From positions 1-64,000 of the forward strand of contig FWWN02000685.1 of NCBI GenBank assembly GCA_900175165.2: a stretch of 64,000 nucleotides of DNA, written 5' to 3'. The translations under genes were made by a program, and so were the position numbers. The stretch's first letter is position 1. Each line of letters begins with the position of its first letter. Positions 12,280-61,184 of the stretch are shown here, piece by piece. Origin of the DNA: Rhizomucor pusillus. Lineage: Eukaryota > Mucoromycota > Mucoromycetes > Mucorales > Lichtheimiaceae. The notes beneath the pieces were generated by a model. That model made no database searches and had not been told where the DNA came from. It was given only the letters and a program-made list of their open reading frames with translations.

Positions 12280-13894
12280 TTAGTCTTGGCCGCGTTTAAG
12301 CAGCGTGAGGACAGCAGCGGCTTCCACAGCATCCACGCCCGCGGACATGGTGACAGACTCTGTGCTGAAACCTATCTTCTCTATAATAGATATGTCAAGA
12401 GATTGGCGAGTGCGATGGTCCTGATCGTGGACCAAGAGCGGCGGTGATGAGTTTGGTGATGAGTCGAGCGGACTGCATGAATCAGAAACCGAGTGCGATG
12501 ACACATGACCGGATCGCGCCTTGTCGTTTAATGAAAGATTCCGAGCTGCATCGATGCTTTTCAGCATATCTTCGTCTTCAGACTCGATCGCCACTGAACG
12601 CTTTTTCTCCTTGACCTTTGTGCGTTTATCCTTTTTAACTGCCGTTTGTCCTCCTTTCTTTCGTCTCTTTTCAGCTTTCGAGTTCCTTCGCTGCTGCTCC
12701 TTTGTGGGCATGGACTGCGCGGCATCTGCACCGCATAAGATTTTACCGTGTTTCCACTTTACACCGCACGCATTGCAAAGCGTTCCCGCTCCCTGCGGTC
12801 CTCGACGCCACATGGGCGTTGACTTTGATCCACAATACAGGCACTTTTTTAAACTTCCATTGGTACCGTTAGACCTTGAGTGCTTTGAACTGCCTGCTGG
12901 GGCGGACATCGTGGTCGAAGGCGGAGATGACTGCCGTTTACTGTGTGGCGAGTCTATGTAACTGTCCATTGTCGTATCATCATCAAACATGTTGGATTCT
13001 ATGGATATTAAAATCTTTCTGGTTAGATATCATTGTGAAGATGTTCACAAAAAAGAAGATGTACCTTTATCCCAGCTATTCTCATCGCTGCTCCATGAAT
13101 GCTTGTCATACATATCATCGTCTTGTGATTGGATTTCCATTTTAGTCAGCGACATTTCTTCCTTGACAAGCTCTTTCTCACTCGCAACTCGTTCTGTATG
13201 CAGACGGACCTGGGTGGGGTCAAGCAACAGCAAGAAAGAAAAAAGATCAGGAGGATGTCGAGCCTTACATGTTACCCTTTACACAATAAAACATACCAAG
13301 TCCATCATTCGCTGGCACACTGCTTCGAAACCGGATACAGCCTGTTTCAACGCAATATACAGATCTTTCGAAACACCAGATATCTGCATATTCAAGACAT
13401 GCGACTCTGACCTCCATACATTTTGTATCTGTAAGCCGGGATCTGTAAACCGACGTTGCGAAAGATTCCGTGACCGGAAAGAATGACTAGAGCATACGGC
13501 GGCAAATTCTTCCAGTTTAGATTCATACTTTGGCTGCTGTGTCGCGCAAGAGCATATGGCGTGAAGTGTTGAAAGGGTTGCAGAGGACTCGGATGATTTC
13601 GGGAGATGAAACGAAAAAAGAACCTTTTAAAAGACAAAAGTGTGTGTATGTGCGTGGTTAGCGAAGCCGGCAAAGCAGTAGCAGCAGTAACGTTTTTCGA
13701 TGGAAGCAGATTGTCATTACCTCGAAAGGTGAAACGTCATTGACGGCTTCGACTACAGCGTCGCGAGGAAACAAGAAATATTCACGATCAGGAGCAGGTA
13801 CCTGGTATTCTTCTCGATGCTCATCCAATATACAAAACACAACATCGTGTCGTATCACTCGGCGTCGCTTTCTCTTCTTGGGCGGCAGCGCCAT
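12280..13894 (-). CDS. GATA-type zinc-finger protein with an uncharacterised N-terminal region
   Basis: Four exons (13721-13894, 13297-13623, 13065-13209, 12280-12998) join in frame to 454 residues. Near the start lies the basic patch KKRKRRR, then the block DVVFCILDEHREEYQVPAPD and PRDAVVEAVNDVSPFE, which I cannot assign to a named domain. The single zinc finger (about residues 265-295) is C-x2-C-x18-C-x2-C: CLYCGSKSTPMWRRGPQG, then LCNACGVKW. It is followed by a lysine-rich nuclear-localisation stretch and a Ser-rich tail. A GATA-motif transcription factor role is inferred. The start at 13894 has a good context (tctcccATGg); the frame stays open upstream to 14311, so a longer N-terminus is possible. 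Confidence 0.85.
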
Positions 13895-21419: not shown

Positions 21420-23796
21420 CTAGTCGTCATCTTCTAGACCGTTCGCTTCTTTCCAGTACGCGGCCAAATTTTCTGCAGTGTCTCTCTTTACAGGATCAGG
21501 CTGAAGCATGCGTTCGAGCAGTACTTGGAACGTGTGATCTACAGCGCCCGCTTCTTGGCACGCAGCAGCGACGAGCGCATCCAGACGTTTCAGATCCATC
21601 TGGAACCGTTTGCCGGTTGCCACCTGGTATACAACGCAGCCTAGCGACCAGATATCCATTGCTTGCGAGACTACTAAGCGGTGGTAGTTGCGGCGTTTAA
21701 CTGACATGGCAGATGTCAGCATTTCCGGCGCGCTGCAAACGTTCAGTCTCGGGTTAGTCGCCGTTTCGCCATTGATCGCTGCCTGATCAAAGTCGCCAAG
21801 CTGCCAATCCGATACCGTCTCAGCGTTCTCAAAGTAGAAACAGAGAGGCGAAATGCTCAAGTGAGCGATCCTCTGAGCGTGGAGATCGCGGACAGCTTCC
21901 AGCATGGCGAAAACCGACCATGCCTTGAATGCAAAGTCGTGCGGGTCGATCGGTGCGTACGTGTTTGGATCGAGTATATGCTCCAGCGAATGGTCTGGTG
22001 TGCACGGTGAAGTAATCCACAGGAATCGATAGCCGCCGCGAGGTGTTGGTGTATTCAAGTCAAAAGCGTCGTATTGCTTAATAAATCGGTTGGAGCGTGC
22101 AACGCCCATCGTTTTGATATTTCGCATGAATGCATCTAGCGCTGTGTACGAAAAGTAATGCAACGTGTAAAGACTGCCGTTCTTTGTAAAATTGCGTCTC
22201 GCATGTCGGTTGTCCTGCTGCTGCAAATTGGCTGGTCCGCTCACTGGCAGATAACCCATTTTCTCTAGAACAGTGCTGCTTGACGTTGCATCCGGCTCCA
22301 GAGATGCTAGCTCGTCGCTGTTTACGTGAAGTTGCTGAACACGAGGTACTGATGACAGCAAGGAAAGCAGCGGCATTTCGCGCTCTCCTTTCTCGCCGTC
22401 GACTATGAGGAAATCTCCAGTGCGATCTGATCGTCGGCGCCGGCGTCTGCAGAAGAGCCATGCGAAGATACCGATAATCAACGCTGCACCGACAATCGAA
22501 CCTACAACGGCGCCGGCAATAACACCTGCTCTGTTGCTTCCACCATTCGATTCATCAGGTGCGTTTGTCGCGCTCGGTTCCGTAGAAGATCCTCCATTGT
22601 TGGATGTGCTCGAGGGTACAAAGTCGCTGGTGTTTCCAGACACTCCTTGGAGGGACGTACCATCGGTCGATCCAACTAGAAAGTACTTTTGTGGGCTGGT
22701 TGGGTTATCCAATACGAGATAGGTCGATCTCCAATGGGTCGAACTTGACACCGGTGCAGTCTGGTTAAGTGGCTGCGTATCTCCAAACTATGTACATTCC
22801 GCCACTTGAGCGAACAACATCTCTCACTCACTTTTCAAGCTGAGCATATATATTGGACATTACCCTGAGATAGCTTAGATACTCGTTCGTACCAACCGCA
22901 AGTTCGGGCTGGCTGCTACCGCGGTCCAGCGGAGCAATGGCTGCTGTGGAAGGCATGGTTCCGGAAAAGTTGCTGGATTGCCACGACCCCAAGTTCTGGA
23001 AACTAACAGATGAGCCCAGCGCTGCTGTCGCTTCGCTTGTCTCTCCAAGCACCATCAGAGAACTTGTATTCGTCCCTGGAAAGCTCACGAGACGTATGGT
23101 AGATGACGATATCGGTACACGTTGCGTCAACGGAGTCGAAAGTGTGTCGCAAAACGCTTTGATGTATGATCCATCTGTCAGTGCGATGCAGTGGCTGTTG
23201 CTGCTTCCGCCATCCTGCACCGTGATCGGTGCAACCGTCGCGAACCTGGTAGCGTCTGTCTCGCCCGACAGTATAATGTCGGCAACCGGCTGGCCAGGAC
23301 TGCTAAAATCATTCACCTTGCTCAAATCGTAGATACGGACTATCGGTATAGGCTCTTTTTGCGTATTGCATATCAATATCTATCTCTGATTATTATTGCA
23401 AGCCCCTTTCTTTTTCACATTACCCGCTCTTTTGTTAAGACTGGTTCCAGTGGAAACAGTCGTCACGCTTGACGACGGTGAGGGCGAGGCGGAACTTGTT
23501 GAGACAACATGCTGCTGCGTATCTCCTCCAGTGGAAGCAGATGACGTTATTGCAGTGCCGACAAGATATACGTATGGACTGTAAAATGCGCATGCCTGTC
23601 CCAAGACAAAATCTGTAAGGTTTGCCGAGCCATCGAATCTGATATCTATGCTGCTGTGACTAGCTGTATAGATGGGTGTGGATCTGCTGTCACTAGATGA
23701 ATTGAAGAACACTAGGTACGAGTCTGTGTATGCAAGGCATCCTTGCGGCATGGTGGGTGTGGAAGAAAGGGAGGAGAAAAAGAAATAAAATAGCAT
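21420..23796 (-). CDS. Receptor-like transmembrane pseudokinase
   Basis: Three exons (23424-23796, 22832-23354, 21420-22743) join in frame to 739 residues. A short hydrophobic N-terminus (MLFYFFFSSL) may be a signal sequence. An ectodomain of about 370 residues, rich in Ser/Thr, follows. A Gly/Ala-rich helix VIAGAVVGSIVGAALIIGIF ends in WLFCRRRRRR, a clear single membrane span. The cytosolic part has a protein-kinase fold with SAPEML and DIWSLGCVVYQVATGKRF (APE and helix F Asp), but HRD is replaced by IAHLSISPLCF and DFG by GDFDQA, and the beta-3 lysine position reads TLHYF. Catalysis is therefore unlikely. The frame also opens upstream to 23928, so the exact start is uncertain. Confidence 0.85.
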
Positions 23797-24171: not shown

Positions 24172-25729
24172 CTATTGCGATGCACGAAGAACAAAGTTGA
24201 GGAACCGAGAAAGCAAGGTTTGAGGTGTCTCAAAGAAGGAATAAGCTAAAAAAAAAATATGCTAGAGTCTCAGCAAAAACAAATTTGAATGCAATGCATT
24301 GCAAATACGTTACCTTTTGAAGCTACAAGGATATCCAACATGGGCGACAGCAATGCTTCGTAGTCGACGTTTGGATCCGAGAGAATATCAGAATGTTTTG
24401 CCCAGGATTTGTCCAACACGCCAATGCTGTACATATCTTGCTTTGTGAATAAGCACGGCAGTGCTTCAAACAGTGGTTTGAATAGCTCCGGACGACTTTG
24501 CAGCGGGTCAGATTCTAGTTCGTTGACAAGGTAATACATAGGATACTTGTTGTCTGTCTTGGAACGGTAATCGATGCACGTCGCAAGCATTTCCTTCTTT
24601 TTGTTATTCTGAAGGATACTGGTCAGACGAGCTTTATCATCTTCTGGGATGGACGCTGCTACAGCTTGGTTGATGGGCATGTCGCCAAAGATCTCGGTTA
24701 TAACGCCTGCCATGAGATCTTTGCTATCTTGCTTGCTCATTTCATTGATGGGCACGGGATCCAGTTTATCCAGCTCGTTAAAGTAAGTAAGATTCAGATA
24801 CAGCCAGTTGTATGCTTTGCGACCACCCAGCGTCATTGTTATCTTTTCAGCTGCAGCTGTGAGGGGCGGCAGACGGTCTGGCAGTATAAACAGTCGAGAT
24901 GAAATGTCCTTGTTCAGCGCGCTCAAGCCTTTGCTTTCTCCTGTTGGGTATCGGGCCGCTGAAGCCAGCGACCCAAACTGTATAAGACGCTGTTGGATCT
25001 TTTGGATTTGACTCGTACGCATCAGTCTCGGTAGCGGCAACGTGCTGGACGCTGCTGTTGCTGCATTTTCGTCGATCAGCGATCCATTTTTCGGGAAACT
25101 CATAGGATCCACAACGACCACATCCGCTGGGTCGACGCTGCCTCCCAAAGCCGACTCTGCTGTGCCCCATCCATGTCCCTCGGTTCGTTCGATGATCTGG
25201 ATACCGTATTTTTGCTGCAGCTCGGTGAAATCAAATAGCACAGACCATGGGATTTCTGTCCACTCGTCGATCGTTTCACAAGGCTCGAGGATTGTTTGCC
25301 AATATCTTTTATCAGAACGGCATAGTTGTCTCAAAATCGCTTTATCTTGGGCTTCGTAGCGTCGGGATAACGTGTCGAACGGCGCCCAGTCATAGGATCG
25401 ACCTAGCCGCAGCTTGGGCGCTATTATAGTACGCTTCGTCTCAAACGCAATGCGGATGGCCGTTCTGAATGCTTCGTGTTGTTCCGGGAAACCTCTTGTT
25501 AGAGACTAATGTCAGCATCGCTCCCACTGATCTCAGTAGTCTCTCTTTTTTACCCGTGAGGAAACCATGAGAAATAACCCGTGCCTCCTACGCGTGTCCC
25601 GGCCTCCTTGGATTTATCCAGCGAGGAGCTTAGAGACCGTTCGGGAGTGTACATCATTGATGCATATAGAACAAGACATATTATAACTGTCAAGCCGGCA
25701 AGGACTACTAAGCGTGACGCACGCGGCAT
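24172..25729 (-). CDS. O-fucosyltransferase-like type II membrane protein
   Basis: Three exons (25554-25729, 24314-25494, 24172-24245) join to 476 residues. The N-terminus MPRASRLVVLAGLTVIICLV is a signal anchor, suggesting the Golgi. Across the first intron the protein reads YFSWFPHGGFPEQHEAFR, then NRT-like KRTIIAPKLRLG, and later KYPMYYLVNELESDP, the pattern of fungal membrane proteins related to the GDP-fucose O-fucosyltransferase superfamily. Donor, acceptor and reaction are not shown by the sequence. The last exon (AYSFFETPQTLL, ending LRASQ) is short and preceded by an 11-T tract. The ATG at 25729 directly precedes the anchor. Confidence 0.75.
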
Positions 25730-33786: not shown

Positions 33787-35033
33787 ATGTCACCCGCTCA
33801 CGAGCAGACCGACGTTGAAAAGATCGAGCATGTCCCGCAAGAACAAAAGGGTGCATTCCACTCTTTCTTGAAATCATTGACATCCTTCTCGGGCGACATA
33901 TCCGCACTCACATGTCCGCCGTTCCTGTTGGCACCAGTATCTTTGATTGAATACTCGTAAGTGCTGTAAGCAGCCAGGTATTCGATTCGAGAAGTGGCTA
34001 ACGTTTTATATCAAGAGAATACTGGGCACAGCAGCCAGATTTGTTTACAGCGATCCCCTCTGCTGACGATGAATGCCAACGCATGCTAGCGTTTATCCGT
34101 TGGTACATTTCTGCCTTGAATGCATCTTTTTCAAGCCGTGTCCCGAAGGGTGAATGGGAAAAGAAGCCTTATAACCCAGTACTCGGGGAGCGTTGGTTTG
34201 CAACCTGGGGTGCTGTTGGAGCCAGCGGAGAAACGCAGGTTGTCTGCGAGCAAGTTTCGCACCATCCACCTGTCACCGCATTCTATATCCACAATGATAA
34301 GCATAAAATCACTCTGAACGGACATAGCGGACAAAAAACGCGATTCTCAGGCACTTCGCTCATCTGCGACCAAACCGGACGCGGACTGGTTACTTTGGGA
34401 GCGCGCGATAATGAAACTTACATGTTTACACATCCTTCACTTACAGTCAACGGAATCTGGTATGCCGCACCGTACGTCGAATTAACCGGCACAAACTACA
34501 TCCAGTCATCCACCAATTATTACACCACCATCGAATTCAGCTCGAAGGGATGGATTTCCGGTGAAAAGAATCACTTCAAAGCGCATGTTTACAAGAACGG
34601 CGATAAGAACTATACGTACAAAGTCGAAGGCCAGTGGAGCGGCAAATCTACCCTCACAGCTCACGGCAGCAAGGCGTCGGAACCGTTCTTGGATGTTGCG
34701 GAGCTCAGACCCGCCCAGTTGTATGTCAAACCGCTCGAGGAGCAAGGTCCGCTTGAATCCCGTCGAGTGTGGCAGAAGGTATCAGAGGCCATCCGTGCCG
34801 GAGACGTTCAAACTGCCGGTGAAGAAAAGAGTGCCATAGAAAATGAGCAACGAGCGCAGCGAAAGCAGCGCGAACAAGATGGTATTGAATGGAAACCGGA
34901 GCTCTTTCAATGGGTGGAAAAAGAACCGCACATAGAACAACTTTGCGAAAAGCTCAGTAGCAGCGTCAAGATCAAGCATAATAACGGTGTCTTGGAGACA
35001 GGAAACTGGGTGCACAAACATCATAGACAATGA
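33787..35033 (+). CDS. KES1: Oxysterol-binding protein homologue (OSH4/KES1 type)
   Basis: Sterol/PI4P exchange protein acting at Golgi membranes. Two exons (33787-33956, 34016-35033) give 395 residues, close to yeast Osh4, without PH or ankyrin domains. Family signature EQVSHHPPVTAFY is intact. A lid-like N-terminus precedes the core (LTCPPFLLAPVSLIEYSEYW). KPYNPVLGERW is the conserved PI4P-contacting stretch, and KNGDKNYTYKVEGQWSG lies in the barrel. The Lys/Arg-rich region around EQRAQRKQREQDGIEW matches the C-terminal helix. The ATG follows a T-rich leader (ttttttttcag). Confidence 0.96.
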
Positions 35034-36812: not shown

Positions 36813-39358
36813 CTATGAAGATTCCTCTACATCTTGCTGATGTATGCGGTCCAGGGTTGATACAGCTGAGCGTACAGCTTCATCTGCGCTCCAGTGGAAG
36901 AAGGGGTATTTATCCTTTGGCAACAAGATAGCCTTGACGGGATGGCTGTCGATGCTTACTTTGTCGGTGTAACTTGCACTGTGCAAAGATTCGAGATCGT
37001 ATTTCACGGATTCATGTTGATGTTGTTGATGTTCAGGGCCGTCCTTGGAAGCCGGAACAACAGGCAAGATTTCCGCGGGTGATGTAAGCCGCGATGCACC
37101 GTCAGGAGTTACTTGAGCTCTGGGCTGAGTGCCGAAACCAGCGACGATGAGGGATTGGCGAATACCAGGATGGATGATATTGATGAAATGGAATTCAACG
37201 TGATGACCAGCATAGCGGTTGAGTGCATTTTGTACATCAACGATAGCCTGGAGACCGCTCGAATCCAAGTTGTTGACGCTGGCAAAATCGAGGATAAGCG
37301 CGTGCAGTTTTGGCAAACCTGCTCGGGCGGCATCGGTTTTCGCATTTGCGTCGTCGTTCCATGCGCGTTCGCCTTTGCTCAAGGTCTTGCCACCACGTCG
37401 AGTGTGGAGCTTGCAGTATTCGATGATGCGATCAGCAATGTAACCAGAGTTGGGATACGTCATGGATTCGTCCACGCGGCACATCAAGATACCAGCAGGT
37501 AAAGCTTCGACCAATTTGCCGAGTGAAGGATGGTTCTCGGGAACATACAGGTAGCTCTGCTCTGCAGACTTTTCGTTGTTCTCGTCGGATGCAAGCGGAA
37601 TTCGACCGAGTGCTTGGAATCTTGGGCGGGCAATGCGGAAGAGGAGGATAACAAAAGATGCGGCGATGGAGGCATAGATACCATACTCGACAGTGGTGAA
37701 GAATGTGACAATAACTGCAGCAACGAAGATGAAAAGTTCCCAAAGGCTCACTGCAGCCAATCGCTTGACGTAACTAGGGCCAGAGACAAGATCAGCGACG
37801 GCGTGGATGACGACTGCTGCGAGGGTAGCATCGGGAATGTAGTAGAAAGCTGGCGTCAAGGCGTAGAGAGCGAGTACGACAACAGCCGCAGAGAAGACGC
37901 CGGCGATGGGGGTCTTGACACCTGAGCGAGCTTTGATGGCTGTGCGAGAGAACGAACCAGTCGAAGGGTACGCGCCAAAGAACGCTGCCCAGATGTTTGT
38001 GAAGCCGATGGCGATAATTTCCTGGTTAGGGTTGATGCTGTAGTCGTTAATTCTTCCAAAGGATTTGGCAATGGCCACGTGTTCAAGAATAAGAATGATG
38101 ACACCTGAAGGCAAAGAGGAGGCAATGGCACCGATTAAACTGGAATCGATTTGAGGAACAGCCATGGCCTGGAAACCTGGAGGGACGGTCTTCAGGATAC
38201 TGATAGGGCTTGAAGACTTGCCAATGTTGATTAAGAATGCGATTAAGGTTGCAAAAATAACGAGAATGCCGTTGCGCATGATACTCAGGAAGAAGAAAAG
38301 CGTGCTGTGCTTTGGATATCGTCTAGTGAGCCATTGGCAAAGGTATCGAATGCCGTAGAGCCACAGCAAGCCAGTCAATCCGAACGCGACGTCGAGTTTG
38401 GTGTTGGGCAGATTCTTGAAGAAATTTCCAAATATCAAGTACGTAGAATCCTGGGTATTGATGCCCTTTATGCCTGTATATTGCAAGCAATGGATCAATT
38501 TATGTGCGCTCAAAGGTTTTGCATCGAGATTCCCGTGTATTTACCGAAAAGCTTTGGCCATTGGCCGATAGTGATCGTGATAGCTGAACCAGTCATAAAA
38601 CCAGCGATAGCAGGGCCTGCATTGATTTTTTCTCTATTTAGAAAATACACCCATGCAAGTGAAACAGGATGATGCACCACTTACCAGGAATAAGGTCAAC
38701 AAGGATACCCAGTCGGACCAGACCAATGAACATCGCGATAGAGCCCGTCATCAACGAGAAAACAACGGCGATCTGCTCTGCAGTGACGTTGGGGTATTCG
38801 GCAGTGACTCTTGTAACGGTTTGTCCAAGAAGAAGAGACATGACGGCTAATAGATAACCTGTGTAAATAAACCATACTCCTTCTTTTCGCCAAGTTTGTC
38901 GCACACGTTACCAGTTGGACCAATAGAAATATCTTTAGAAGTGGCAAACAAGCAGTAAACACATAGACCAACAAACGCGGTGCTGTGAAACGTGATCAGA
39001 AATTCACATTGCTTTTACTCTTTACCTTTTTCCAGAAACTTACTATAGACCGTATTGTGGCGGAAGTTCGGCGATCTTTGCATAACCCATACTTTGAGGC
39101 ACAACGACGATACCGACAGTTATACCTGCGATAAGATCTCGGAGGAGCCACTGGAACACTCGATAAGTAACTGTGGCAGTCTTAAGATGCGTTCACTGTA
39201 CCAACCTGAAGGTTATAGCGGTGGATCCACTGTGCGATTGGTAAGAGAGCAATGAAATAATCCTTTATGAAGCCAGGGATCTTGCGAAAGAACTCCTCAG
39301 TCTCCCGCCGATAGTCGACTTTATCGTAGTCGATGATAATACTGTCAGCGTTAGGCAT
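36813..39358 (-). CDS. SulP sulfate permease with C-terminal STAS domain
   Basis: High-affinity sulfate/proton symporter of the plasma membrane, SUL1/SutB type. The final exon covers about 566 codons (to about 38.48 kb) and five upstream introns join the rest: RYNLQ-WLLRDLIAGITVG, GYAKIAELPPQYGLY, TSKDISIGPTAVMSLLLG, IPGPAIAGFMTGSAI, KLFGIKGINTQDSTY. SulP hallmarks are VPQSMGYA, GPTAVMS and the FFGAYPSTGSFSRTAI segment. The STAS domain contains LHALILDFASVNNLDSSG. The start MPNADSIII at 39358 precedes a family-typical N-terminal region. The first donor is gttggt. Expression is probably sulfur-controlled (see the palindrome at 39510). Confidence 0.95.
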
Positions 39359-41826: not shown

Positions 41827-42438
41827 TGTCAAGTAGTCAGATTCGCAGAAGGATTACAGTTCGCACAATCCAGTAAATATGTTTACTATTTAAATTTGAC
41901 ATTTGCATTCATGCATGTGCCAAGTGGTGGGGAGGCTCCTGCTCCACACGTGAAAGGTCCAATCGTATCCATTTAAACTTGCATATACTATTGCAGGATA
42001 TACTCTTTTTTTTCACGGCCGGCAGTTTGCCGTGTCACAAGTGGCAGAGCTGCTGCAAGCTTGAGTTTGAATGGGCGTCGGTAGGAACATGATGAGAACA
42101 GTAACGACAAGGCGTGCGCCCTGGGCGTTTGTTCTGGCATTATGATTATCATTTCAGCCATCTGCAAGTCTAACAATGGCTTGTACATACATGGAATTGT
42201 CCAGATTTTTGGCAAAGCAACCGGCATGTCATAGGAATATATTTTGTTGTAAAGGCAAAGCTTGGAACCAATCACGAAGTTTCAATACATTTTTACATAG
42301 AAATTTGAAAAAAGAAAAAAGGAGAAGAAAAGAATTGGAATTACATGCAACAAGAGAGAGAGATGAGAGGGAGAGTAAAAGGGGGGGTGTAAAGACTGTT
42401 GTTGAAGGATAATGCACGGGAGACGACGAATATGCTTT
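41827..42438. other. Convergent 3' region
   Basis: 612 bp between the acidic protein and the Myb-like gene. Purine-rich near 42300-42400 (gagagagagatgagaggg). No gene. Confidence 0.5.
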
Positions 42439-43655
42439 TTACATGATAGACCTTAATAGTTCGGCTATTTCTTCCTTAGAGCTTCCAGACTTGACGAGGC
42501 GCTTGACGAGATCAACTCGAGCTCGTACCCGGCGAGTTTTCTCCCGCTCTTCAGCCAAGAGTCGTTCGTAATTTTGCCCATCCTCCGGCATTAACGGATC
42601 AGGGGAAAATTCTTCGTCAAGTCGCCGCTTTCGCAACAGAGCTGCATCGTTGCTGCCTTCGTTCGAATAGCTGCTGCTGCCGCTGCGGCTGGAGCACGCA
42701 TCCTCTTCTTCATACATTGGAGGCATGGCATTATCGGTGGTAGTTGCGGTGGAAACAATGACTGCTTGGCTATTATTTGATAATGAAATGATGCTGGTCG
42801 TAGTAGCGGTTGCAGTTGCCGCAGTTGCTTGCGCCGTAGCAGCTGCCACAGCAGCGGTCGCGGCTGCTTGCTGCTGCTGGTGAGTTTTAACTAGCGTTGT
42901 ATCTTGTGGTTGAAAAGCATAGTACGGCGATGAAGGAGGGTATCCATCATCTTCCTCGTCGACGGAGTGGATAATGCTGCGGATCGACATGGGCCATCCG
43001 GCAATGTTGCTGTTATGTGTTGTCATAGTAGTCATAGTAGAAGTGCTCGAAACATTGCCCTCGGCGGTTTTGGTTGTTGTCGTAGTAGTGGTGGTTGTGA
43101 TAGTTGTGTGCGTGGAATGTGTTGTTCCCGTGGCACCAAACACTTCGTGTAGCTCATCCCAGTAAGGAAATCGCCTCAAGACCTCCTCTGGAAAATAGAA
43201 AAAAATACCAAGTGGTTAGGTGACACAGAGTCGTTGAACAGGTTTCCAAAAACCTTACTTTTCACATCCGTCTCCAAGGCACCAGCTTTGCGCCACTGCG
43301 AGCCGATCACATCGTACCATTCCCGCGCAGTTCTGTAGTTACTTTGCAGAGTCGAAATTTTGCTAGCGACATCTTTTGCGAGGCGATGGTGGATCCCAAC
43401 CTGCTGCAATTGGTCAAGGATCTCTTGTAGGAGCAACTTTTTAGGCATGCGGTTGTCGCTATCATCGCGCCACTTTGTTGTATAGTTTGCAGATAACCAT
43501 CGCACCACGACCTGCATGGAGCAGGGACCACCGTTGACGCCATCCTTGAGCCAGCTTTTGTAGGGCTTTTTTCTGTGCCGTCGGGATGATGAAGAAGAGC
43601 CCTCCGACGGCGATGGCTGGTCGGTGTTGGTGGAGGAGCAAGTGGCCAAGATCAT
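42439..43655 (-). CDS. Myb/SANT-like DNA-binding protein with Thr/Ala-rich low-complexity middle
   Basis: Two exons (43259-43655, 42439-43187) give 381 residues. A Ser-rich N-terminus leads to a SANT/MADF-like domain (about residues 30-145): YKSWLKDGVNGGPCSMQVVV, DVASKISTLQSNYRTAREWY, and LRRFPYWDELHEVFG after the intron. A Myb/SANT-like fold used by transposon-derived regulators is likely. Then come a Thr run (TTITTTTTTTTTK), an Ala/Thr-rich stretch, and a C-terminal helical segment ending KEEIAELLRSIM. I infer a nuclear DNA-binding protein; the target is unknown. Confidence 0.75.
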
Positions 43656-44555
43656 TGCGCTGCGGAAGACGTTTTTGTTGTCAGCTGAGCAAGAAGAAGA
43701 AAAGAAAAAAAGGCAGAAGAAGTTGGAAAAGGACAGAGCAAGGGAAGAGAGGGAAGAAAAAGGGAGCCGGAGGATGCAGCAAGCTTATTGGAGGAGGAGG
43801 CGCAAGAAGATGCGCAAAAAAAGGAATTTCGGGTTTGAGCACTACCAATGGGCTACCTGTGGACCCATCGTCCACATTCATATCCTTCCAGTAAATTCTG
43901 GAGCTGACATGATTGGCGGTCCAAGTCAGGTCACTGGGCTTCTTGCAGCACAGCTGCGTGGCAGGTCATATGCCATTTCCATTCAATTGGAAAAGAAAAA
44001 TTTGGATACACGTACGTACATGTGTCCAGACCCGCCCAAGGACCCTATCCTCTCCCTTGGACGTGGCATTTTTCGCTTTGCAGCCCATCATCGTAAGATG
44101 ATGCCTTCCATCTTGCCGTCTCCATGGTGCTTATTTGCTCGTTTTGAAATTGCCAAGACAACGCACGATCAAATTGTTTTCTGTCGTTATTTCCTTTTCA
44201 TTATTTTTACGAGATCATAAGAACCAGTGAAGCCACAATACCGAGCGGTATGCGCCACGTTTTTCTCAAGTAACAAAGCAGCCATGGCACGACTTTTTGA
44301 TCTCGCATACTTGTTATGGATACCGAGTTTTTGTTCTAGCCATCTTAAGGAGGTGTCAGTGCACTCCCCCGTTCCTCAACTGTCTTTTGGCACCTGCCAC
44401 GCCATGCTGCTGCTCAAAATCAGGCGTGATGCATAATCAATGCGCATTCCTCAATGCAACTTTCTTTCTTCTTCTCCTTTGCTTGCTTTGTTCATGACCT
44501 GCCTGGGATCGATATTGTTCCTGGTGGGGTAGCACACGGGCGGGCGGAGGAGGGC

Positions 44556-44580
44556 TGTGTGTGTGTGTGCGTGTGCGTGT
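44556..44580 (+). repeat. (GT)n microsatellite
   Basis: Alternating tg/gc dinucleotides, about 25 bp. Confidence 0.85.
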
Positions 44581-45671
44581 GATTTGATTCGTACAGCGGC
44601 GACGATCGTGGTTTTCAGCGCCCCCACTTTTTTGCTGGACAAAAGATCGATGGGCGCTGGCTGCTAAAAGACTTCTTTCTTTGACCAAATTAGTAGGTGG
44701 GGCCAGACCGTTGGACCAGGCCCAATAATCCGCGCAAACAAGGGGGCGAGTCTTGGGCGGTACAGCTTAATAAGGAAACACTGTAGGCTGCTGCCTGAAA
44801 AAAAAAAATGCAGCCGCCGCCGACGACGACGATGGACGACGGAAAATGTGCGGTTTGCCCGGTGTTTGCCGTGCTACCTACCTTGATGTCCCACGCTTGC
44901 GCCGAAGCACCGTTGCCCCGCACATGGACATATGTTTCTAATAGACAGGTGACTTATTGCTGCTAATGCCTCGGATCATTTACACCGTGGTTATCTGCAC
45001 TGTTTTCGCTCCCCCTAATCCCAGCACACACTCGATTTAATATTTTCTCAATTGACGTGAAATGAAAACTGTCGGAGCACATGGGCCGTATGTATTAAAC
45101 GGCGATGCTGCATCTTCATTTATGTAGCAGAAAATAGACGGCAAGCAACAGTCGTACACAATTGAGAAATTTCTGAAAGAAATATATAGTGTCCAATAGG
45201 AACGATTTGAAACCAGCGCAGCGGCGTGAAGTGTACATGTGTAGATAACAGCGAGTTTATGGATGCTGAGATCGAGACTTGTCAGTTAACAAAACATTAC
45301 AAGATTCATTCGCTTCTCCAAAATCATTCACGTTGTTCCAAAATATCCGAGGAACTCCTGCGCCAGCTGTCTTCCTTGAAAAAGATCGGCAAGGCTCGTC
45401 AGACCATAGAGAGCAAGTGAACGTGATACGTGGTAGAGTACGTACCAATCTAGAAATAAACTTACAGAAAGGTCAGTCTGGTGTCAATAATCTGCTGAGC
45501 TCAGAGCAAGCTTGGTCCTTTTTAATCTAACGCTTCTAATTGCGGGAAGGCATGTGGTACGCGAGTGTCTTTTTGGAAACTGATTCTGTACTTAGCAATC
45601 AACAACAGAAATCAATTATCTCGCTTTCTCCTCTCCGAAAACTGTCAAGTACGTAAATGTTATCCCAAGTT

Positions 45672-45960
45672 GAATGACTGTCACAATGAGTTATTAATGG
45701 GATCGATGCGTGAATCCCATACTCAAACGAATGGTTTATGGTTATTTCAATCTATTCCATCGATAGGTAAATATGATGAACTTAAAACATTTTCATGTCA
45801 CTATGTTTCTTTTTCATCAAATTCTTACAGCCCTTCTCTGCTTGATTTCGATTTTCATCCCCACATTCACTCATTTTCTGCCCCAAAGATGATGCCTCTG
45901 AGCACCATGATGGTTCTTGTTTATTCCTTGGATAATTCTACAATGTAAGCGAATATTCCG
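45672..45960 (+). repeat. Dispersed repeat R, copy 1
   Basis: Aligns through its length with copy 3 at 63655-63940 and with the reverse complement of 46740-47015. Shared blocks include gaatgactg, tatggttatttcaat, ttccatcgata, cttacagcccttctctgc/ctttctatgcc and ctctgagcaccatgatg. Identity looks like roughly 70-80% by eye. No known family. Confidence 0.75.
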
Positions 45961-46320
45961 CGAGGCGTTCTTTCTTGCAAGCTTGCTTTTTGAAGCATTT
46001 TGGCTGAGACCGATTGACATGAATGGCAGGGGCTCCAACCCCTCTGCTGCGGTCGTGGGACTTCCTCCAGACTTGGCACCGATATCTGGCCCTGACGTGA
46101 CACCTTCAAAGACAACTCCCGGGACGTACATAGTCGTATAGATTTACTCGTGATATTACATATGTAAGGGCCATGTGTAGCTAGAAATTATATGTCAGTA
46201 TGCTTACTTGTTTAGTATCATTTCGGACTGGCTTTTTGGATGTGCGCACTATAAATGAAACTGAGCATTGCCTGCAAAGTGGAACAGACTGTGCTGGTGC
46301 TGGAGCAGCTTCTTGCGTAG

Positions 46321-46600
46321 TTAATCGGCGTTGCAGTCGGGAAACGCTTCAGTTGCCAAGACTCTCAGCGCGTTGCTAAACCGGGCAATACGATCACGGT
46401 GGTGCACGACCAGGTAGTAGTAGCCGCCATTTTCAAAGACCTTCTCCGCTATGCGCTCGACTGCGTTGGAATACAGTAGTGAAACTCCAGGCATGCTCGA
46501 AAGCAGCTGGGTCTATGCAGAGAGTCTGGTGATCTGCCGCAGTTTGTGACACTACAAACCTTGAAAAGTCTATGTAAACGTTTGCGAATCTATAAAACCA
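46321..46600 (-). pseudogene. Orphan coding exons between inverted repeats
   Basis: The exon 46321-46512 reads 63 codons without a stop: TQLLSSMPGVSLLYSNAVER, then GGYYYLVVHHRDRIARFSNA, ending FPDCNAD and TAA. Coding quality is much better than the surroundings, and an acceptor (gcatag) precedes it. A likely upstream mini-exon (about 46563-46592) gives IRKRLHRLFK in phase. No N-terminal exons are found further up, where repeat copy 2 begins at 46740. It may be the 3' end of a gene truncated by repeats. The family is not recognised. Confidence 0.4.
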
Positions 46601-53155: not shown

Positions 53156-54475
53156 ATGAAAAGCCCAAGCGTTTCCTTGCTCGCCGTCGCCTCTGTCACG
53201 CTCCTAAGCACTTTTGTATCGGGTTTTCACCACGATGTTGATTGGATCAAGCAGCATCTGGCAAGCAAGGCCCCGTACCCAGTTACCGGTACAAACAGAC
53301 TGGATAACATCACCAAGGACGGCTACCAAGTCGATCAATTGCAGCTTGTTGTGCGCCACGGAAGTCGTTATCCCTCGGACGGTGACACTGAAGATATTGC
53401 CGATGCCCTTGCATTGTTGAAGAGCAGTACCAATAAGGATGCACTTAGCTGGCTCCATGACTATGAGAATATCTACACCGATGAGAGAAGCGGAAGACTC
53501 GATGAGAATGGTCAGCTGGAAGAGTACCTCCACGGGCGCCGTGTTGCAAAGAGCTATCCTGCCCTTCTCCAGTCTATTTTCGATCAAGGCACCGTTAAGC
53601 GTATATCCGCCTATGCAACCGATTCTCCTCGAGTGTCCCAATCGGCACAGGCTTTCCTCTTGGGCTTGCTGGAAGGACATGGTCCTCTTGGTTCCTCAAA
53701 GCAGATCACTGTTCCCATGTTTACCTTGCCAGACGACAACAATACTGTTATCAGCTTCTATGAAAGATGCCCTGCCTATGACAAGGAGGTCGATGATAAC
53801 GATAAAACAAATGAACAGTCTAAACTATATGAAGAAATGGCTGAATCGCCCATTGCCGAGCGGCTCTCAAAAGAACTCCACATCAACGTAACCGCCAAGG
53901 ATGTCACAAAGATCTACACCGGCTGCTCCTTTGAAGTCTCCCACCGCAACAACGTAGACACTTTCTGTTCCTTGTTGTCAAGAAACGATATCCTGGTGAA
54001 CGAATACCGCGAAGATTTGTCTTACTTCTACAAGGATGCGTACGCCTATGAAATCAATAAGCATATGGCATGTGACCTCATGAAGGATGTCATGGCTAAC
54101 ATCAACGCAGCTATCAGTGGAACTGAAGACTACGACAAGATCTCCCTTAAGTTTGGTCACACGCAATCCATCCTCTTTTCCGAGACATTCTTGGGACTTT
54201 TTGACGACCATAAATTGTTGCTGGCCAACATGACACAGTCCGAAATCAACAACCGTGCCTTTAGAACTTCAAAGATCGCTACCTTTGCATCCAATGTCGC
54301 TTTCCAGGTGCTCACCAAAAAGTCAGCCGATCAAAAGTTTGTACGTGTGCTTGTTTCCGAAGAACCAGTTGTAATTCCTGGCTGCAAGGATATCGTCTGC
54401 CCTATCGAAACATTCCGCAAAATCATGGAGCCGCGTCTCCAGTGCGATTTCAACAAGCTTTGTGCATTAGAATAG
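53156..54475 (+). CDS. Secreted histidine acid phosphatase, MINPP/phytase-like
   Basis: Intronless, 439 residues. A cleavable signal peptide is clear (MKSPSVSLLAVASVTLLSTF, likely cut after VSG). The histidine phosphatase motif QLVVRHGSRYPSDG provides the nucleophilic His; the second catalytic region is LKFGHTQSILFSE, with His but a Thr where many acid phosphatases have Asp, as in part of the MINPP group. C-terminal cysteines (GCKDIVCP) fit the extracellular fold. Several Asn-x-Ser/Thr sites are present. It probably releases phosphate from inositol phosphates or phytate outside the cell. Confidence 0.9.
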   Translation: MKSPSVSLLAVASVTLLSTFVSGFHHDVDWIKQHLASKAPYPVTGTNRLDNITKDGYQVDQLQLVVRHGSRYPSDGDTEDIADALALLKSSTNKDALSWLHDYENIYTDERSGRLDENGQLEEYLHGRRVAKSYPALLQSIFDQGTVKRISAYATDSPRVSQSAQAFLLGLLEGHGPLGSSKQITVPMFTLPDDNNTVISFYERCPAYDKEVDDNDKTNEQSKLYEEMAESPIAERLSKELHINVTAKDVTKIYTGCSFEVSHRNNVDTFCSLLSRNDILVNEYREDLSYFYKDAYAYEINKHMACDLMKDVMANINAAISGTEDYDKISLKFGHTQSILFSETFLGLFDDHKLLLANMTQSEINNRAFRTSKIATFASNVAFQVLTKKSADQKFVRVLVSEEPVVIPGCKDIVCPIETFRKIMEPRLQCDFNKLCALE

Positions 54476-59760: not shown

Positions 59761-61184
59761 ATGGAGCTTGGCACCGCGGCGACGGGCATTGGCTACTTTC
59801 TAGTGGCCTGGTATACGTTCATGTTCCTTCTCAGTCTTCTGGGACAATACGTCTGGTAAGGAATTGATGTTGGCCTCTTCTCATTTGCAAAGACCTTACA
59901 TGAACCGGGGCTCTTAGCCAGACGCGGTATACTCGAAAGCCCAAACCTGTTTCGCCAAAGCTTGGTGCTGATGCTCCAGGCGTGTCCATTATACGACCTC
60001 TCAAGGGTGTTGACCTGGAGCTAGCAGACAATCTTCGGTCTTCATTTGAACAGCAGTACCCAAAGTTTGAAATAATATTCTCAGTTGCTTCCGCGGACGA
60101 CCCAGCCGTTCCTATTGTCGAGCAGCTTATGAAAGAATACAAATCAGTGGGTTCTCGACTGATTATTGGTACGCTTCAGAAAAGATGGATGAGGAATAAT
60201 ATGTATATATTGATTACTCCAACAAAAAAAGGCGATCAACCTGTAGGAATCAACCCCAAAATAAACAACATTGTCACGTCATACAAGACTGCAAAGTATG
60301 ATATCCTATGGGTCCTCGATTCAAACGTGCATGTCGACAGCAATACTCTTGGACGCTCGGTAGATCAGTTGTTGGAACCAGGCATTGGTCTAGTGCATCA
60401 CCTTCCAGTTGCTATGCAACCCGCCAGCTACGCGGCCGAACTCGAACATATTTTCCTGGACACGAACCACGCAAAGATGTATCTCGCTATCAACCAAGTT
60501 GCCGTCGCATCATGCATCATGGGCAAGTCAAATCTATACAGACGCTCTGATCTCGATCGCGTGGGCGGGCTGGCTGCATTTGCTCAGTACATGGCGGAAG
60601 ACAATATCATTGGTGAAGCATTGTGGCACCAAGGACTTCGACATCGCATGAGCGCAGATACAGCGTGCCAAATGTTGGGAGATATCTCACCCATGGAATA
60701 CTGCCGGCGAAGAGCACGATGGGTTCGTCTTCGCAAATACATTGTCACGGCTGCTACATTGACGGAGCCCTTCACTGAATCAATCGTGTGCGGGCTCATG
60801 GGAGCAACTGGCGCTCATATCCTTTTCGGTTGGCCCGTCGCTCGTTTCTTCGCATTGCACTGGTTACTTTGGTTCATCAATGACTACTTTATATACAAGA
60901 CTTTGGTTTCCTCCGCATCGTATTCTAAGCGCCGAGGTCGTCCGCACTCACGACTAGATCTGTGGAGATTTATCCGTGCATGGCTATCCAGAGAAATCCT
61001 TGCATTGCCACTGTATCTTTACGCAATGTTTGGAACAGAAATAACCTGGCGCGGACAAAAATACCGGTGCCTACGTGATGGCACGGCTGCCGCCATCTCA
61101 AAAGATCTATCCCCTGATGCCGCTTGCGAATACACTCAAGTATCCGTCGCAGTATCACCGAACGACAAAGACAAGGCTCATTAG
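59761..61184 (+). CDS. UGCG: Ceramide glucosyltransferase (GT21)
   Basis: Transfers glucose from UDP-glucose to ceramide in the Golgi to make glucosylceramide. Three exons (59761-59855, 59918-60168, 60232-61184) give 432 residues. An N-terminal membrane helix (FLVAWYTFMFLLSLLGQYV) precedes the GT-A domain: VSIIRPLKGVD, PVGINPKINN, LWVLDSNVHVD (D1/D2), AYMAEDNIIGEALW (D3) and RRRARWVRLRKY carrying the (Q/R)XXRW motif. Two or three C-terminal helices follow. The second intron (60169-60231) is 63 nt and stop-free; without splicing it adds 21 residues in the conserved IIG-DQPVGINP turn, so splicing is expected. Confidence 0.95.

Follow-up and report, generated by a model that had tools for sequence, protein, structure and literature searches.

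A probable receptor-like pseudokinase of a Mucorales family encoded in the genome of Rhizomucor pusillus

Can a mould carry a membrane protein built like a receptor kinase, in which the kinase fold is kept and the catalytic residues are not? The question is raised by a gene on the minus strand (23796 to 21420) of a 64,000-nucleotide stretch of the Rhizomucor pusillus genome (contig FWWN02000685.1, positions 1 to 64,000), the whole of which is referred to below as the window. In a preliminary description of this DNA the gene was taken for a receptor-like pseudokinase with three altered catalytic positions. According to our analysis, which combined sequence comparisons with the predicted model of a relative, its product is probably a receptor-like pseudokinase that crosses the membrane once and belongs to a family found in Mucorales. 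The layout is that of a receptor-like kinase, as had been proposed: in all ten members of the family one membrane helix lies between an N-terminal and a kinase-like domain, its flank on the kinase side being basic. The full active set of catalytic residues (Lys, HRD Asp, Asn and DFG Asp) occurs in none of the ten.

Three open stretches of the gene join in one frame via two short introns (69 and 76 nucleotides) sharing a GTAATG donor, the splice sites of both being set by frame continuity only. With the introns removed, the gene model predicts a protein of 743 residues, the parts of which are as follows.

23424..23796, minus strand: exon 1, N-terminal part, starting with MLFYFFF; alternative start MPQGC at 23751
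23355..23423, minus strand: intron 1, 69 nucleotides, GTAATG...CAAAAAG, placed by frame continuity
22864..23354, minus strand: exon 2, outer domain, as in the gene model
22788..22863, minus strand: intron 2, 76 nucleotides, GTAATG...TACATAG, placed likewise
21420..22787, minus strand: exon 3, with stalk, membrane helix, juxtamembrane part, pseudokinase domain and stop
22452..22523, minus strand: membrane helix VIAGAVVGSIVGAALIIGIFAWLF, then CRRRRRR; Kyte-Doolittle mean 2.52 over 19 residues
21435..22205, minus strand: predicted pseudokinase domain, by sequence homology, with the fold taken from the relative P0010
22152..22166, minus strand: TLHYF, likely strand beta-3 (a strand in the P0010 model), with His where the ATP-binding Lys is expected; placing uncertain
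21855..21863, minus strand: HLS instead of HRD, catalytic Asp lost, by the family alignment and alignments to kinases of the same genome
21786..21794, minus strand: DFD instead of DFG, Asp kept and Gly changed, by the same alignments
21723..21731, minus strand: APE motif, kept (family alignment: APE 8/10, PPE 2/10)
21636..21656, minus strand: DIWSLGC of helix F, kept (DIWSLG in 10/10 of the family alignment)
21423..21458, minus strand: C-terminal YWKEANGLEDDD, YW invariant, acidic tail in 10/10 members

The N-terminal region of about 370 residues is 30% Ser/Thr and contains six N-x-S/T sequons; it is followed by a strongly hydrophobic helix (residues 377-400) and RRRRRR, after which a linker of about 75 residues leads to the kinase-like domain ending with YWKEANGLEDDD. 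We hold this anatomy, i.e., a single-pass membrane protein with a kinase-like domain, to be very probable. A second close copy of the gene was not seen in the 24.45-Mb genome, the remaining matches of the protein there being to its stalk and membrane segment only.

Nine relatives were retrieved by three protein searches, two of which scored only about 8000 candidates sharing most words, so that absence elsewhere is not implied. They come from Chlamydoabsidia padenii, Absidia repens, Absidia cylindrospora (two proteins), Halteromyces radiatus, Cunninghamella echinulata, Dichotomocladium elegans and two other sources, and together with the window protein (P0001) make ten members. Five of the named species belong to Mucorales by taxonomy, four of them to Cunninghamellaceae and one to Lichtheimiaceae (A. 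cylindrospora is outside this count). Two further hits, P0011 (E 4e-8) and P0012 (E 1.3e-4), turned out, when compared with Pfam, to be ordinary kinase proteins and were left out of the family. In the tree of the kinase parts the window protein and that of Dichotomocladium split from the Cunninghamellaceae and two other rows (99/99), although this placement is uncertain because of two very long branches.

By fold, the kinase-like domain is assigned to the protein kinase superfamily on the grounds of sequence homology (best PDB match TTK) and of the predicted model of the Dichotomocladium relative, P0010, in which a two-lobed kinase fold with C-lobe helices is recognisable. The AlphaFold2 (AF2) model of the window protein itself is too poor to read, and the fold reading comes from P0010, where a short strand (603-604) stands directly ahead of GFE (606-608), as beta-8 should. 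A non-kinase fold, the outcome that had been named as refuting, was not seen among the nine relatives. Matches to bacterial kinase models of NCBIfam (MADS6, LanL) were far under the cut-offs and were disregarded.

In the catalytic loop the window protein has HLS and the Dichotomocladium relative HLD, six members have HRK and two HCK. The position of the catalytic Asn is occupied by C, H or S (N in 0/10), and that of DFG by DFD in the window protein, GFE in Dichotomocladium, GFY in seven members and GFF in one. Both catalytic aspartates together, as well as Lys at either candidate beta-3 site, are found in 0/10. The APE and helix F motifs are indeed kept (APE in eight members and PPE in two, DIWSLG in all ten), and T-[IL]-H-Y-F is present in 10/10. 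By the residue criterion (a kinase fold without one or more of Lys, HRD Asp and DFG Asp), the domain is, as predicted from alignments and model, a pseudokinase.

The placing of these motifs was tested by aligning a profile of the family to 15 kinase domains from this genome, namely 14 picked from a list (at least two of them degenerate) and that of C285, a protein discussed below. The HRD Asp fell on Ser in 13/15 alignments and the Asn on Cys in 13/15, which bears out the loss of the catalytic Asp in HLS; two of the 15 rows were shifted by two, at least for C285 through a parsing fault, the separate alignment of this protein being correct. The DFG Asp fell on the D of DFD in 10/15. DFD is an altered position with respect to Gly, the Asp itself not being lost as the earlier claim had implied. 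The beta-3 Lys fell on His in one alignment and, in three, on an Arg located 12 residues upstream or close to it, whereas its site was unreached in eight; three of the 15 target domains lack this Lys themselves. The upstream Arg is also invariant in the family, and the strand order of the P0010 model favours His. Substitution of Lys by His is one of two possible placings and the least certain motif; what stands of that claim is the absence of Lys from both sites.

One might suppose an unusual but active kinase with a different residue set, such as WNK and other atypical kinases use. The DFG Asp is kept in the window protein and an HRD-type Asp in the HLD of P0010, and C285 carries DFE with the other residues in place, so that a residue other than Gly there does occur in this genome. 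We consider such activity quite unlikely, however, given that the two aspartates are never combined, that the Asn and the beta-3 Lys are missing from the whole family, and that the P0010 model contains no strand at 390-467, where the Gly-rich loop is expected, though this stretch mostly has a predicted local distance difference test score (pLDDT) below 50.

The relatives do not conserve the same substitutions, contrary to what had been anticipated of orthologues: the nine show different losses, and none among them has intact HRD and DFG. The Asn and the beta-3 Lys are missing in all ten members and each Asp in different lineages, and the simplest account appears to be an ancestral pseudokinase with later mosaic losses. 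The substitutions being lineage-specific (HLS/DFD, HLD/GFE, HRK or HCK with GFY or GFF), they could also represent drift after the loss of catalysis, in a domain that is decaying or relaxed and persists through its link to an outer domain that is useful. This seems to us very improbable, as the frames are open in all ten proteins, DIWSLG, WITS and YW are kept in 10/10, and similarity is higher in the kinase part than in the outer part for 36/36 pairs of alignment A2 and 36/36 pairs of alignment A5, with identities (kinase/outer) of, for example, 93/83, 87/73, 66/40 and 50/20 percent. Together the two alignments cover 44 of the 45 possible pairs, and the kinase part is more conserved in 44/44; these pairs lack independence, and the row of the window protein consists of the last open reading frame (ORF) only, with about 70 outer columns. 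The suggestion that selection keeps the fold and not catalysis is supported.

As for topology, the window protein has one Lys or Arg among the 15 residues ahead of its helix and seven among the 18 that follow, the corresponding values in 10/10 members being 0-1 and 5-7. According to the positive-inside rule, this asymmetry makes the kinase side cytosolic. Two Cys positions close to the N-terminus align in 7/7 full-length members (the first residues are trimmed in three rows). A kelch propeller was considered for the outer domain and gained no significant support: there was no Pfam kelch match in the window ORFs, Kelch_2 in P0010 (E 0.11) was below the cut-off, and profile comparison stayed at shuffle level. 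Neither a leucine-rich nor another known outer domain scored in these Pfam scans.

Several observations weigh against an inactive receptor at the cell surface. No convincing signal peptide was found in the window protein or the six full-length relatives, the best 10-residue N-terminal hydropathy being 1.78 (MLFYFFFSSL) in the former and 0.65-1.39 in the latter; ATGs at 24600-23700 offer no hydrophobic start above 1.80, and the one at 1.80 sits in the frame of the upstream ORF. Either the membrane helix directs export on its own, or all of these gene models lack a short first exon. Sequon density, higher outside in 9/10 members, is lower in P0008 and near equal in P0003, and supports the topology weakly. 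Structure prediction, proposed earlier for both regions, gave a kinase fold in P0010 but left the outer domain of that model without a fold assignment (pLDDT about 20-30), and profile comparison of the window and P0010 outer domains with the others stayed at the level of shuffles, that of Cunninghamella being above them. On the kinase side, the DFG Asp fell on the D of DWQ instead in 3/15 profile alignments, a site also favoured by the HMMER alignment to TTK, and ATP binding or action on substrates persists in some proteins that lack canonical residues.

The absence of a strong signal peptide, together with the fact that the six full-length relatives start with M-x(2-16)-C right where the shared domain begins, is in line with a protein which is not a surface receptor, its N-terminal domain staying in the cytosol or the whole residing in an inner membrane. 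We regard this as unlikely, since the charge asymmetry predicts a cytosolic kinase side throughout the family and, weakly, since the seven full-length members bear 4-8 N-glycosylation sequons in their outer part (inner parts have some too). The term ectodomain is founded on the charge asymmetry and, weakly, on the sequons, no clear signal peptide having been found.

Taken as a whole, a receptor-like pseudokinase with an outer sensor, no phosphotransfer and an allosteric or docking role is the interpretation we favour, with moderate confidence. The variable Ser/Thr-rich N-terminal domain would face outside and sense or bind something at the cell surface or wall, while the cytosolic pseudokinase, without transferring phosphate, would switch by conformation or dimerisation and provide an active kinase, or some other effector, with an allosteric partner or a platform for docking. 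Docking might proceed via the conserved C-lobe and the YW/acidic C-terminal tail; candidate interaction surfaces are this tail and WITS, a segment preceding helix D, both invariant in 10/10 members.

Around the gene, 10 window ORFs were scanned against Pfam and 5/10 matched at 1e-5: a GATA factor (12280-12990, minus), an oxysterol-binding protein (34041-35033, plus), a sulfate permease (36813-38513, minus), a histidine phosphatase (53156-54475, plus) and a glycosyltransferase of family 21 (59982-61184, plus). A 354-residue open frame upstream on the same strand (24270-25334, minus) had no match at this threshold, and a nitrogenase match of the first ORF (E 0.19) was dismissed as noise. Elsewhere in the genome, the only 5.8S match found (C334:156276-156395, L012) adjoins a stretch that looks coding and contains a motif like a zinc knuckle, as well as a piece resembling large-subunit rRNA, as judged by eye; these may be pieces of rRNA within or beside a retroelement.

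Through the membrane/stalk segment of the window protein (45% over query residues 43-110, E 2.3e-6) the protein called here C285, after its contig in the same genome, was found (about 42305-46340, minus strand, in L020; exons joined by eye), which consists of kelch repeats (Kelch_3, E 2.9e-8), a membrane helix, a long linker and a kinase (Pkinase, E 8.1e-33). Upstream of it, a stretch at L020 6951-7340 reads by eye as a signal peptide (MLPHSSVWLGSIIIFLAQLADAQ). A further close copy of the C285 kinase was not found in the genome. The kinase has AVIK, the helix-C Glu, FCDLKPSN and WKLIDFEAS, with K, E, D, N and the DFx Asp all in place and DFE for DFG, and consequently an acidic residue after DF is alone no sign of inactivity. 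By its sequence C285 is a candidate active fungal receptor kinase, and this fungus thus seems to possess receptor-like kinases. Like the window protein, it possesses a stalk and a membrane helix, and its WKLIDFEAS resembles WQLGDFDQA of the latter; unlike it, C285 has all catalytic residues and detectable kelch repeats. Its kinase domain is not clearly the nearest one, being second of 15 by hhalign, where the CDK-like L024 came first, and third of 15 by hidden Markov model score. Direct descent from C285, to which the shared beta-8/DFx motif had pointed, was not adopted and is kept as a lead only, because overall similarity does not single C285 out. By analogy with the pairing of ErbB3 with an active ErbB, C285 as active receptor and the pseudokinase as co-receptor might associate through their similar membrane and stalk segments in a Mucoralean two-part system, independent of animals and plants; we rate this arrangement as distinctly improbable. 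Two other loci contain kinase-like domains with altered motifs. One (C300:10060-12392, plus, L035), degenerate with CRE for HRD and DIS for DFG and followed by more kinase matches, is perhaps GCN2 with its pseudokinase domain; the other (C106:20213-20896, minus, L033), with HKD, AIR at beta-3 and GFE for DFG, is a possible further pseudokinase.

Fungi are generally described as having no receptor kinases and as sensing mainly through G protein-coupled receptors, two-component kinases and mechanosensors. The rarity of this topology in fungi, asserted in the preliminary description, must now allow for C285 as a second, active-looking receptor kinase of the same genome. In searches of the openly licensed literature and in passages from it, neither a receptor pseudokinase nor a kelch receptor kinase of fungi came to light, an absence which, being limited to such literature, is weak (PMC6989107, PMC8778642, PMC12394161, PMC12881547, PMC2838846). 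A conserved membrane pseudokinase and a separate kelch receptor kinase in one mould suggest that early-diverging fungi have receptor-kinase signalling of their own, for the testing of which the family provides a concrete gene set.

Pseudokinases and receptor pseudokinases as such are already known from animals and plants. The receptor pseudokinases of animals (ErbB3/HER3, ROR, PTK7 and RYK) resemble the window protein in having an outer domain, one membrane helix and a kinase fold without the full catalytic set, from which the latter differs in being fungal, in its other outer domain and in a C-lobe that is Ser/Thr-kinase-like by sequence. Plant receptor-like pseudokinases, DRIK1 reportedly being one, are similar as membrane-anchored kinase folds without the residues of the ATP site, whereas plant receptor-like kinases carry other outer domains. 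Among fungi, PAN3 is a known pseudokinase, and the pseudokinase domain of GCN2 is another according to PMC12394161. Both resemble the window protein as kinase folds without activity in a fungus and differ from it in not having this membrane layout.
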